Translations under genes and position numbers: made by a program
Shown here: in pieces, positions 4,702-54,621 of the stretch
Layout of the letters: every line of letters begins with the position of its first letter
How positions within the stretch are numbered: position 1 is the first letter of the stretch
Assembly (NCBI GenBank): GCA_018715125.1
Contig: DVMF01000036.1
Location: 1 to 64,000, forward strand
Direction of reading: 5' to 3'
DNA from: Candidatus Coprousia avicola
GTDB lineage: Bacteria > Actinomycetota > Coriobacteriia > Coriobacteriales > Coriobacteriaceae
Length of the DNA stretch: 64,000 nucleotides
The notes under the pieces: model-generated
Seen by the model: the letters and a program-made list of their open reading frames with translations, nothing else
The model's database searches: none
What the model was told of the DNA's origin: nothing

Positions 4702-4726
4702 CACTTTCCGACGAACGGTGGTGACC

Positions 4727-5413
4727 ATGGGCGCTTTTCGCACCATTGAGGTTAAACAGAGCGTATTTGCCGACAACGACCGCAGGGCCGATGCGTTGCG
4801 TGCCCGCCTCAAACGAGAGGGCACGTTTCTGCTGAACCTTATGTCGAGCCCGGGGTCGGGAAAGACGACGACGCTGATGCGGACCATCGAGGCGCTTTCG
4901 GGCGAGCTCTCGATGGCGGTGATGGAGGCGGATATCGACTCGGACGTCGATGCGCGCACCATCGCCGACGCCGGGGTGCAGAGCATCCAGCTCCACACCG
5001 GCGGCATGTGCCACCTGGATGCGTATATGACCGAGCAGGGGCTTGACGCGCTTGCCGCCGAGGCGCCCGCGCAGCCGGACCTGATCGTTTTGGAGAACGT
5101 GGGCAACCTCGTGTGCCCGGCGGAGTTCGATACGGGCGCCGTCGCCAACGCGATGATCCTCTCGGTACCGGAAGGCGATGACAAGCCGCTCAAGTATCCG
5201 CTCATGTTCTCGGTCTCAGACGTGGTGCTCATCAACAAGGTCGATGCCCTGCCCATCTTCGACACGTTCAGCATGGACCGCGTGCGCGCAAACATCGCGG
5301 CGCGGAACCCCGAGGCCGAGGTCATCCCCATCTGCGCAAAGACAGGCGAGGGCATCGACCGGTGGGCGGCCTGGCTCCGCGGGCGCGTGGAGACCTGGAA
5401 GCGCGATGCGTGA
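4727..5413 (+). CDS. hypB: Hydrogenase nickel incorporation GTPase HypB
   Basis: LNLMSSPGSGKTTTLMRTIEAL P-loop, HTGGMCHLDA, ENVGNLVCPAEFDTG, NKVDALP: HypB signature motifs. Confidence 0.92.
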   Translation: MGAFRTIEVKQSVFADNDRRADALRARLKREGTFLLNLMSSPGSGKTTTLMRTIEALSGELSMAVMEADIDSDVDARTIADAGVQSIQLHTGGMCHLDAYMTEQGLDALAAEAPAQPDLIVLENVGNLVCPAEFDTGAVANAMILSVPEGDDKPLKYPLMFSVSDVVLINKVDALPIFDTFSMDRVRANIAARNPEAEVIPICAKTGEGIDRWAAWLRGRVETWKRDA

Positions 5414-50201: not shown

Positions 50202-50239
50202 AAGCGAGTAAAATTGATGCCTGTTACGCGTAAAGTGAT

Positions 50240-50270
50240 GGGCGGCCATCCGTACGGGTGGCCGCCCTTT
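50240..50270 (+). terminator. Terminator after hpf
   Basis: GGGCGGCCATCC / GGGTGGCCGCCC then TTT. Confidence 0.75.
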
Positions 50271-50285
50271 CATGTAGGAAAGGGT

Positions 50286-51242
50286 ATGGAGATGGCTGAG
50301 CCTTCCTCTTCGGGCCATGCAAACCGCTATCGCATCGTGGTCGACACGTGCGCCGATCTCACGCCCGAGATCGCCGCGACGCTTGACGTCGACATTCTCG
50401 GGTTCCCCTACATCGTGGACGGCGAAGAGAAGACCGACGACATCTGGACGTCCATCACGCCCAAGGAGTTCTACGACGAGATCCGCGGGGGCGTGAAGAT
50501 GTCCACGTCGGCCATCTCGCTCGGGCGCTACCTCGAGTTCTTCACCGAGTGCGCCAAAGAGGGCACGCCGACGGTCTACCTGTGCTTCACGAGCGCGCTC
50601 TCGGGTAGCTATGATTTTGCGTGCCAGGCTGCCGAGCAGGTGCGTGCGAGCTATCCTGATTTCGAGCTCTACATCGTCGACAACTGCCTGCCGTGTGCCT
50701 GCGGCGAGCTGCTCGCGCTCGAGGCGGTGCGCCAGCGCTCGGCGGGTCTTTCCGCCCGCGAGCTCGTGGACTGGGCAAACGAGGCCAAGCACTACGTGCA
50801 CGGCTACTTCACGCTCGACAGCCTCGATTCGCTCGCGGCGGGCGGGCGCATCCCGCCGGCTGCCGCGCAGCTCTCCAGCAAGCTCGATGTCAAGGCGTCG
50901 CTCTCGTTCGACCTGGCGGGCTCGCTCTCGCTCACGGGCGTTAACCGGGGCCGCAAGAAGGCCCTGAAGGCGCTCGTCAAGGCGTTCCAGGAAAACTATG
51001 TGCTCGATCCGGCGCTGCCGCTCACCATCGTGACGGCAGACGCCGAGAAAGACGGCGATTGGGTCGAGGCGGCGGTCCGCAAGGAGCCGGGCTGCGCCGA
51101 CCTCACCATCATCCGCGGCTCGGTGGGACCGACCATCGGCGCGCACGTGGGCCCGGGCATGGTCGCCCTCATCTTCTGGGGCAAGAACCGCGCCGAGAAG
51201 GTATCGCTCTCCGACCGCATCGCCCGCCGCGTTCGCAAGTAA
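50286..51242 (+). CDS. DegV family fatty-acid-binding protein
   Basis: RIVVDTCADLTPEIAATLDVDILGFPYIVDGEE, MSTSAISLGRYLEFF, GYFTLDSLDSLAAGGRIPPAAA. Confidence 0.92.
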   Translation: MEMAEPSSSGHANRYRIVVDTCADLTPEIAATLDVDILGFPYIVDGEEKTDDIWTSITPKEFYDEIRGGVKMSTSAISLGRYLEFFTECAKEGTPTVYLCFTSALSGSYDFACQAAEQVRASYPDFELYIVDNCLPCACGELLALEAVRQRSAGLSARELVDWANEAKHYVHGYFTLDSLDSLAAGGRIPPAAAQLSSKLDVKASLSFDLAGSLSLTGVNRGRKKALKALVKAFQENYVLDPALPLTIVTADAEKDGDWVEAAVRKEPGCADLTIIRGSVGPTIGAHVGPGMVALIFWGKNRAEKVSLSDRIARRVRK

Positions 51243-51274: not shown

Positions 51275-52357
51275 ATGGCAGATAAGAAGCAATCCGTCGC
51301 GTTCATCGGTACCGGCATCATGGGTGCGCCCATCGCCGGGCACATCTTGGACGCCGGGTATCCCGTGACCGTGTACAACCGCACGGCCGCCAAGGCGCAG
51401 CCGCTGCTGGAGCGCGGCGCCGTGTGGGCGGAGACCGCCGCCGACGCCGTGCGCGGGGCGGACGTGGTCTTTACCATGGTGGGATACCCCGAGGACGTCG
51501 AGGAGCTCTACCTTGCCGGCGACGGCCTGCTGGCCTCCTCGAAGCCGGGCGCGATCCTGATCGACCTCACCACGAGCTCCCCGTCGCTGGCGCGCGATAT
51601 CGCGGGCGCCGCCGCGGTGAGCGAGCGCACGGCGTTCGACTGCCCCGTAACGGGCGGCGAGGCCGGTGCCATCGCGGGTACGCTCACGGCCATCGCGGGC
51701 GCCACCGAGCGCGATATCGAGCCGGTGCGCGCGCTTCTCGAGACGTTTACGAGCAAGATCTTCTGCTTCGGCGGTGCGGGTAAGGGCCAGAGCGCGAAGC
51801 TCGCCAACCAGGTGTCGCTCGCGGCATCGATGGTGGGTATGGCGGACGCCCTCTCCTTCGCGCAGCAGGAGGGGCTCGACCTCGCCCAGACGCGCGAGAT
51901 GATTCTCACCGGCACCGGTGCCACGGGCGTCCTCGCCTCGCTTGCCCCCAAGGCGCTCGACGGCGATTGGAAGCCCGGTTTCAAGGTGCGCCATTTTATG
52001 AAGGATCTGGGGCTCGCCCTCGCCGAGGCAGAGGAGCGCGACATCGCCCTGCCGGGGTGCGACGTCGCCTTCACCCTGTACGACATGCTCGACGCCATCG
52101 GCGGCGCCGAGCTGGGCACGCAGGCCATCACCCTGCTCTACCAAGAGGAGGCCGAGGCGGTTGCGGCCGGTTTGGACTGGTCGCTCTACACGGCGGAGCA
52201 TGAGCACGAGGACGGGTGCGGCTGCGGCCACGACCACGGCGACGGCCACGAGTGCACGTGCGGCCACGACCACGGCGACGACCATGAGTGCTGCCACGGG
52301 GCGGGCCACCACCATGAGCATGGTGAGGGCTGCTGCCACGGGGCCGACGGGGAGTAG
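51275..52357 (+). CDS. 3-hydroxyisobutyrate dehydrogenase-family NAD(P)-dependent oxidoreductase with His/Cys-rich C-terminal tail
   Basis: VAFIGTGIMGAPIAGHILDAGYPVTVYNRT, DCPVTGGEAGAIAGTLT, GKGQSAKLANQ; tail EHEHEDGCGCGHDHGDGHECTCGHDHGDDHECCHGAGHHHEHGEGCCHGADGE. Confidence 0.9.
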   Translation: MADKKQSVAFIGTGIMGAPIAGHILDAGYPVTVYNRTAAKAQPLLERGAVWAETAADAVRGADVVFTMVGYPEDVEELYLAGDGLLASSKPGAILIDLTTSSPSLARDIAGAAAVSERTAFDCPVTGGEAGAIAGTLTAIAGATERDIEPVRALLETFTSKIFCFGGAGKGQSAKLANQVSLAASMVGMADALSFAQQEGLDLAQTREMILTGTGATGVLASLAPKALDGDWKPGFKVRHFMKDLGLALAEAEERDIALPGCDVAFTLYDMLDAIGGAELGTQAITLLYQEEAEAVAAGLDWSLYTAEHEHEDGCGCGHDHGDGHECTCGHDHGDDHECCHGAGHHHEHGEGCCHGADGE

Positions 52358-52360
52358 CGG

Positions 52361-52828
52361 ATGGGGGACGTTGCCTTCGTCATCTGCTTCGCGCTGCTGT
52401 TCGTCTTCAGCGTGTACCTCGGCTTTATCGTAGGTAACCACTGGGGCGAGCGCGCCCTCTCCGCAGGGGCGTACTGGCTCTACAACGCCGTCGCCATCAT
52501 CGCCTGCGTGGTGCTGGCGGCGGTGCTCACGCTCTTCCCGCTCCTGTACGCCACGCCGCTCGGGTTGCTGATGGGCGCCATCGCCGGTCTCAAAATGGGT
52601 TTTGGCGAGTCGGTGGGCCCTTGGAAGCTGCTCGACCGTTTCTTTGACGTCAACCGGCGCCAGCGAGGCGCGGCGGGGGCGGCGGCGCGTGCGGCCCGCA
52701 AGCGGCGCAAGACCGGAGAGAAGGCGCCCGATCTCATCTCGGTTTCGGGCGACAAGGTCCAACCTTCGGCCGGGCGCGCACCCAAGACGGCGCGCCGTAC
52801 CGACAATCATTCGAGAAACAAGAGGTAG
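52361..52828 (+). CDS. Small membrane protein, unknown
   Basis: Two hydrophobic segments and basic C-terminus; tightly linked to neighbours. Confidence 0.6.
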   Translation: MGDVAFVICFALLFVFSVYLGFIVGNHWGERALSAGAYWLYNAVAIIACVVLAAVLTLFPLLYATPLGLLMGAIAGLKMGFGESVGPWKLLDRFFDVNRRQRGAAGAAARAARKRRKTGEKAPDLISVSGDKVQPSAGRAPKTARRTDNHSRNKR

Positions 52829-52833
52829 ATAGC

Positions 52834-53532
52834 ATGGCTCAGCCCATTATGGAAGAGATGAACGACGAGGAGCGCGCCGAGCTCGAGCGCGTCGAGAAGG
52901 ATGCGAACGCGCTCGGCGCGCTGGTGGAGGACCTGGCGTGCGCAAGCCGTCGCAAGCGCCAGTTCGCCGCCCGCGTGGTGTCGCACCTGGCGGCAGAGGA
53001 GCCCGAGCTCGTCGCGGGGCACATCGACGCCCTCATCGACGCGCTCTATCGCCCCGAGGCGCAGACCCGTTGGGAGGTGCTCGACGCCCTCACCTGCCTG
53101 GTGCCGACGCACGCCAAGGAGGTCGGCGCCGCCTTCGAGGGCGCGGAGGCCGCGCTGTTCGACGAGCTGTCCTCGACGCTGCGCTTCTCCGCCTTCAACT
53201 TCCTGGCGACCTGGGGGGCCTCGGAGCGCGGCCGCTCCAAGAAGGTCTGGCCCATTCTGGACGAGGCGATCCAGTGCTACCACGGCGACCTTGAGTACCG
53301 CGACATGCTGGCATGCCTGCTGGTGTTCGCCGAGGGCAAGATCGCGGGCGAGGTCGCCGACGAGCTGGCCGGCCGCCTGCAGTTCGACGCGCAGAACGGC
53401 AAGGGCGCTTTCATCAAATCGCGCTCGGCCGAGATCTACGACATGCTCGTCAAGCGTTTCAAGCTCAAGGACCCCAAGAAGCGTGCGCGTGTGACGCCCA
53501 AGGACGACGAGGAAGAAGACGAAGAGGAGTAG
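52834..53532 (+). CDS. Helical (HEAT-repeat-like) protein, unknown
   Basis: Alpha-helical repeat pattern RQFAARVVSHLAAEEPELVAGHIDALIDAL...; 6 bp after preceding ORF. Confidence 0.65.
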   Translation: MAQPIMEEMNDEERAELERVEKDANALGALVEDLACASRRKRQFAARVVSHLAAEEPELVAGHIDALIDALYRPEAQTRWEVLDALTCLVPTHAKEVGAAFEGAEAALFDELSSTLRFSAFNFLATWGASERGRSKKVWPILDEAIQCYHGDLEYRDMLACLLVFAEGKIAGEVADELAGRLQFDAQNGKGAFIKSRSAEIYDMLVKRFKLKDPKKRARVTPKDDEEEDEEE

Positions 53533-53535
53533 CCC

Positions 53536-54621
53536 ATGAGTCACGACGTGGTCCTTATCCCCGGTGACGGCATCGGTCCCGAGATCACGCAGGCCATGCG
53601 CCGCGTGGTGGATGCTACCGGTGTCTCCATCTCCTGGCACGTTGCCGAGGCCGGCGCGGCCCAGATCGAGAGTGCCGGCACACCCCTGCCGCCCGAGACG
53701 CTCGAGGCGGTGCGGACGTACGGCGTCGCCATCAAGGGTCCGGTCACCACGCCGGTGGGGACGGGGTTTCGCAGCGTCAACGTCGCGCTGCGCCAAGCGT
53801 TCGACCTCTACGCCTGCGTGCGCCCGTGTCGGTCGCTGCCGGGCGACGGCTCGCGCTACCGTGACGTCGATTTGGTGATCGTGCGCGAGAACACCGAGGA
53901 CCTCTACGCGGGTATCGAGTTCGAGGCGGGGGCGCCCGAGGTGGATGAGCTCGCGGGCATCGTCGAGCGCTCGGGCCAGCGGGCGATTCGCCCCGGGTCG
54001 GCCATCTCCATCAAGCCGATTTCTGCCGAGGGCTCGCGCCGTATCGTGACCTATGCCTTCGAGTACGCGCGCCGTGCCGGGCGCCGCAAGGTGACGGCGG
54101 TGCATAAGGCGAACATCATGAAGGCTACCGACGGGCTCTTTCTGCGCGTCGCGCGCGAGGTTGCCGCCGCGTATCCCGACATCGCCTTCGAGGACAAGAT
54201 CGTCGACGCCTGCTGCATGGGTCTCGTGCAGGATCCGCAGCAGTTCGATGTGCTCGTGCTGCCCAACCTGTACGGCGACATCGTCTCCGACCTCTGCGCC
54301 GGCCTCACGGGCGGGCTGGGCATGGCGCCCGGTGCCAACATCGGCGATGGGCTGGCGGTGTTCGAGGCGACGCACGGCTCGGCGCCCGATATCGCCGGAA
54401 AGGATATCGCCAACCCCACGGCGGAGATACTGTCTGCCGCGTTGATGCTCGAGCACCTGGGCGAGACCGAGGCTGCGGGCCGCGTGCGCGCGGCGGTGGT
54501 GTCGGTCCTCAGCGAGGGTGCGCAGGTGACGGCTGATGTGCGGCGCGCTCAGACGGGTGCGGCCGCGGGTGCGGTCGGCACGGCCGCGTTCGCCGATGCC
54601 GTGATCGCGCATCTGGGCTAG
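53536..54621 (+). CDS. Isocitrate/isopropylmalate dehydrogenase family protein
   Basis: LIPGDGIGPEITQAMRRVV, DLVIVRENTEDLYAGIEFE, NLYGDIVSDLCAGLTGGLGMAPGANIG, FEATHGSAPDIAGKDIANPTA. Confidence 0.93.
   Translation: MSHDVVLIPGDGIGPEITQAMRRVVDATGVSISWHVAEAGAAQIESAGTPLPPETLEAVRTYGVAIKGPVTTPVGTGFRSVNVALRQAFDLYACVRPCRSLPGDGSRYRDVDLVIVRENTEDLYAGIEFEAGAPEVDELAGIVERSGQRAIRPGSAISIKPISAEGSRRIVTYAFEYARRAGRRKVTAVHKANIMKATDGLFLRVAREVAAAYPDIAFEDKIVDACCMGLVQDPQQFDVLVLPNLYGDIVSDLCAGLTGGLGMAPGANIGDGLAVFEATHGSAPDIAGKDIANPTAEILSAALMLEHLGETEAAGRVRAAVVSVLSEGAQVTADVRRAQTGAAAGAVGTAAFADAVIAHLG

Follow-up and report, generated by a model that had tools for sequence, protein, structure and literature searches.

Why should a dehydrogenase end in a dense run of histidines and cysteines, and could that run hold metal? 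The question is raised by an open reading frame at positions 51275-52357 (forward strand) of a 64,000-nucleotide stretch of the Candidatus Coprousia avicola genome, referred to below as the window. The frame encodes 360 amino acids; the ATG at 51275 is the start backed by homologues, the position 51059 given by a mechanical ORF caller being too early, and the stop codon ends at 52357. An earlier note on this DNA had described a 53-residue C-terminal tail with 14 His and 8 Cys at 52196-52354 (forward strand), which matches residues 308-360 of the ORF exactly. AlphaFold2 attaches the tail through a flexible linker after the last modelled helices and predicts it to be disordered, with pLDDT below 50 at residues 310-320 and 322-360. 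The underlying DNA contains a nearly exact tandem repeat (52223-52291, period 36 bp, 93% matches), which is the probable source of the changes in tail length. Searching the PDB with the tail alone retrieved nothing, even at an E value of 10, and a search of the same genome with the tail sequence detected no locus besides the dehydrogenase. Motif scans of this genome found one further strong His-rich stretch, in the nickel-insertion protein LarC (L239:4281-5747, G000 contig 36), where it is long and internal (HDHGHCHDHDHACDHHHDHGG...).

The protein that carries the tail is predicted to be a catalytically intact enzyme. The core and a short linker occupy 51275-52195 (forward strand), with the dehydrogenase domain at about residues 1-299, and AlphaFold2 models the core with pLDDT over 90. 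Pfam detects the N-terminal Rossmann domain (NAD_binding_2, E 9e-46) and the C-terminal domain (NAD_binding_11, E 3.2e-25). The core contains the GxGxxG motif at residues 12-17, D-x-P-V-x-G-G at 122-128, and the catalytic Lys175, Asn178 and Lys243-Asp244. In an alignment of 30 homologues G12, G14, G17, D122, P124, V125, G127, G128, G131, A132, K175 and N178 are invariant, as are K243 and D244, and K175 falls in the KLxNQ segment of L-serine 3-dehydrogenase when the two are aligned. The two Pfam domains, the GxGxxG and DxPVxGGxxGA motifs, the catalytic lysine and the fold place the enzyme in the beta-hydroxyacid dehydrogenase (HIBADH/GLYR) superfamily. Its closest PDB match is L-serine 3-dehydrogenase (40% identity, E 1.9e-29). 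With the enzyme of Pyrobaculum calidifontis (3w6u, 5xvh, 3ws7; 40% identity over about 280 residues), as with other beta-hydroxyacid dehydrogenases, it shares the two-domain fold and the catalytic lysine region, but the alignment stops short of the tail and none of the matches listed reaches into it. The name 3-hydroxyisobutyrate dehydrogenase, used in the earlier note, thus holds at the superfamily level but not as an equivalog: the score against TIGR01692 (3-hydroxyisobutyrate dehydrogenase proper) is 176.8 bits against a cut-off of 291.6, and the nearest structures are L-serine 3-dehydrogenases. The NCBIfam search yielded no equivalog over its cut-off. Our nearest guess for the substrate, from sequence, would be L-serine or a similar 3-hydroxy acid.

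Sequencing error, an assembly artefact or a quirk of one strain can be ruled out as the origin of the tail, since the same tail, with variation that preserves His and Cys, is present in independently sequenced genomes of Collinsella, Enorma and Atopobiaceae. This disposes of the two doubts that had been attached to the original observation, namely absence from close homologues and sequencing error. A scan of 41 genomes for HECxxGHxH (as DNA) placed 32 of its 33 matches at the dehydrogenase locus, while the reversed-pattern control gave none. Across 98 tree rows the tail is 29-89 aa long and has a median content of 14 His and 8 Cys. In these 98 tails, 740 of 760 cysteines (97%) are paired as CC or CxC, compared with 42 ± 2% in shuffled sequences, and 76% of histidines lie in HH or HxH, compared with 66 ± 1%. 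The motif scan and the pairing of cysteines relative to shuffles exclude a chance origin.

We then compared codons in 34 sequence-disjoint pairs. In the His and Cys codons of the tail, 92 differences were nonsynonymous and 133 synonymous; the ratio is 0.69, whereas 3.1-4.8 is predicted by a neutral codon model; misaligned repeats in divergent pairs add some nonsynonymous counts, so the constraint on these codons is, if anything, underestimated. The Asp, Glu and Gly spacers are looser (161 nonsynonymous, 144 synonymous, ratio 1.1, expected 2.5-3.1). These counts argue that the His and Cys codons of the tail are under purifying selection. A functionless, nearly neutral tail of low complexity arising by repeat slippage would agree with the tandem repeats in the DNA, the variable length and the several losses described below, but given that selection, the conserved Cys pairing and the retention of the tail across two families, we consider it very improbable.

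The tail is found at one syntenic locus in nearly all Coriobacteriaceae (Collinsella, Enorma) and in most Atopobiaceae sampled. In other families of the class the orthologues (L138-L147) end at about GTQALWLLYE, without a His/Cys tail, and in further families of the order the ends are His-rich (L029, L030, L219, L221), acidic (L220) or neither (L028). The distribution of the tail on a 131-row tree calls for at least eight changes overall and at least five inside Coriobacteriaceae and Atopobiaceae, which, as read from the sequences, fits one old gain followed by several losses. Examples of such losses are those in Collinsella sp. AK_207A (L056/L092); in L057, L120 and L132; in L124 and L126; and in L133, L135 and L137. 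Since the tail has been lost several times while the enzyme was retained, it is dispensable in some lineages. The loose pattern CxGHxH, as applied to tail-less genomes, is too degenerate for recognising a replacement tail.

The composition of the tail also varies. On the same enzyme, L123, L127, L129 and L130 carry short His-only tails that resemble a natural His-tag, whereas in L117 the Cys pairs are kept and His is swapped for Asn, Ser, Thr or Asp, leaving 9 Cys and 2 His among 68 residues. Tails rich in His titrate near pH 6, and this general chemistry, together with the lineages that have His only or mainly Cys, would suit a tail that sequesters excess metal, or responds to pH or oxidants, and plays no part in supply. 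We find such detoxification or acid/redox buffering improbable: extreme CC/CxC pairing beside HxH is the signature of a metal site and not of a pH buffer.

The genes around the dehydrogenase follow the order comF, amino-acid binding protein, hpf, degV, dehydrogenase, membrane protein, 232-aa protein, (isocitrate dehydrogenase) and 385-aa protein. This order is largely kept in both families, some members being missing or undetected, which indicates that the tail was inherited along with the gene. The degV family gene (50214-51242, forward strand; TIGR00762, 188 bits) lies directly upstream as a conserved, syntenic neighbour. A gene for a 155-aa membrane-like protein (52361-52828, forward strand), likewise syntenic, starts 3 bp past the dehydrogenase stop and is likely to be on the same transcript; the protein has no Pfam or NCBIfam match, carries a GLKMGFGESVGPWKxxDRF motif and adjoins the dehydrogenase in many relatives. 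A conserved gene for a 232-aa protein with an acidic C-terminal end and no Pfam or NCBIfam match follows 5 bp further on (52834-53532, forward strand), and then, in part of the relatives, an isocitrate dehydrogenase-like gene (53536-54621, forward strand; NF006529, 413.7 bits, below the cut-off of 510). Family searches and synteny revealed no recognisable metal transporter or metalloregulator among the conserved neighbours.

We also considered whether the tail is tied to the downstream membrane protein, and rejected this: the tail-less L056, L133, L135 and L137 still have that protein when its presence is scored by tblastn, a strict motif test missing copies. In one complete Atopobiaceae genome (L107:3992-5467) a single frame of 491 aa runs through the dehydrogenase, a shortened version of the His/Cys tail and the membrane protein. 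In its near relative L096 a stop codon intervenes, and the membrane protein follows 3 bp later; the in-frame fusion of L107 may be either natural or an error. Four Atopobiaceae (L098, L096, L088, L093) have an extra gene downstream of the dehydrogenase with a SSIAVLIDFENLALGTG-like start, which by sequence looks like an NYN/LabA-type nuclease.

If the tail holds metal, which system might it serve? The earlier note pointed out hypA and hypB in the window, a hint at nickel, and hypB, encoding the nickel-incorporation GTPase, is indeed present in the window (4718-5413, forward strand; TIGR00073, 225.8 bits, cut-off 121.2), while larC lies elsewhere in the same genome. HypB and LarC proteins can have His-rich stretches that, like the tail, are acidic, of low complexity and thought to hold metal, and the LarC of this genome has one of its own; unlike the tail, theirs belong to dedicated nickel-delivery proteins, and that of LarC is internal. 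The tail could then be a nickel reservoir supplying HypB for hydrogenase or LarC for the nickel-pincer cofactor, in line with SlyD and HspA, whose tails serve nickel. The distribution of the genes speaks against it. In 26 tail-bearing tree rows the genome has neither hypB nor larC, and in 8 tail-less rows it has both. Across Coriobacteriaceae and Atopobiaceae, when hypB matches under the family cut-off were scored as absences and a single ambiguous genome was excluded, the tail was not associated with hypB (Fisher p 0.72), and its relation to larC (odds ratio 0.15, p 0.05) ran opposite to a nickel link. Phylogenetically independent pairs gave nothing significant for the tail against hypB or larC. 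The co-occurrence expected of a nickel-delivery accessory is therefore lacking, and the tail is not an accessory of those two systems. A reservoir for them is thus quite unlikely, and the hint drawn from the hyp genes is not borne out across the two families; nickel for some other use is possible.

Known proteins offer a model for how such a tail could work. The SlyD tail of E. coli binds up to 7 Ni(II) and that of Helicobacter pylori 2.4 Ni or 3.3 Zn, and the enzyme activity of SlyD is reversibly inhibited when its tail binds nickel (PMC7055735). The His/Cys extension of H. pylori HspA (GroES) binds nickel in vitro and is regarded as a pool that stores and sequesters it (PMC3856676). The tail described here is like these in the way it would work, without being a member of either group: it is C-terminal, predicted to be disordered, rich in His and paired Cys, and absent from most members of the enzyme family. 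As in HspA, a conserved housekeeping protein has gained a C-terminal His/Cys-rich extension, here predicted to bind metal; however, the carrier is a dehydrogenase and not a co-chaperonin, and HspA has links to NikR and to hydrogenase maturation, whereas the dehydrogenase tail occurs independently of hypB and larC. As in the SlyD of E. coli and H. pylori, an enzyme ends in a disordered C-terminal tail, that of SlyD being rich in His, Cys, Asp and Glu, but a Pfam scan found no FKBP peptidyl-prolyl isomerase domain in the dehydrogenase. An origin of the tail by borrowing from the SlyD of the same genome was rejected, as the SlyD-like proteins there are tail-less, and the FKBP ends examined in a few relatives are tail-less as well. 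With its SlyD-like proteins lacking one, this genome could have the dehydrogenase tail stand in for them.

By analogy with these systems, we propose that an intact cytosolic beta-hydroxyacid dehydrogenase doubles as a transition-metal buffer through its disordered, multi-site C-terminal tail, with Zn(II) the most likely metal, and we rate the chances for and against this proposal as about even. Several weak, fast-exchanging sites would be strung along the tail, each made of a Cys pair (CC or CxC) and nearby HxH histidines and repeated down its length. Judging by its family, the enzyme is probably an oligomer, and each particle would then display several tails. Several transition-metal ions should bind to the tail with micromolar or better affinity, most likely Zn(II), otherwise Ni(II), Co(II) or Cu(I). 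It would keep free metal low and hand it back to client proteins, much as the HspA and SlyD tails do for nickel. A buffer is favoured by the flexibility of the tail, by its variable length and repeats and by its lack of connection to particular metal enzymes, and zinc is chosen for the one reason that the link to the two nickel systems failed. Such a role needs high expression.

The most interesting rival to a buffer is a gated enzyme, with the tail acting as a sensor and not as a store: metal bound to it would alter how active the dehydrogenase is, how it oligomerises or where it is located. The inhibition of SlyD by nickel offers a precedent, and the tail has stayed on one catalytically intact enzyme without moving between proteins. 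We nonetheless think this rather unlikely: the flexible linker, the predicted disorder and the range of lengths from 29 to 89 aa fit a store better than a defined switch, and to our knowledge the beta-hydroxyacid dehydrogenase core is itself not a metal enzyme. We put forward only tentatively, as doubtful, the idea that intracellular metal controls the activity or assembly of the dehydrogenase through the tail, in which case Collinsella and Atopobiaceae would have an enzyme of central metabolism as their metal sensor or zinc store.

That a His/Cys tail can be added to a housekeeping protein is already known. No description of its fusion to this dehydrogenase was found in the open-licence literature searched or in the matched Pfam and NCBIfam families, and its absence from ordinary members agrees with the earlier remark that it is unexpected on this family; the carrier enzyme and the conservation across two families appear to be new. 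The carriers, Collinsella and relatives, are human and animal gut bacteria, and the enzyme is a common metabolic one. If the tail is a natural metal binder, affinity columns charged with Ni or Zn should retain the enzyme in its native form. If it holds metal, Collinsella and Atopobiaceae would store or buffer transition metal on a housekeeping enzyme and not on a dedicated chaperone, a parallel to HspA of H. pylori that here is conserved across two whole families, and truncation of the tail would provide a simple handle on zinc or nickel management in these common gut and vaginal bacteria.
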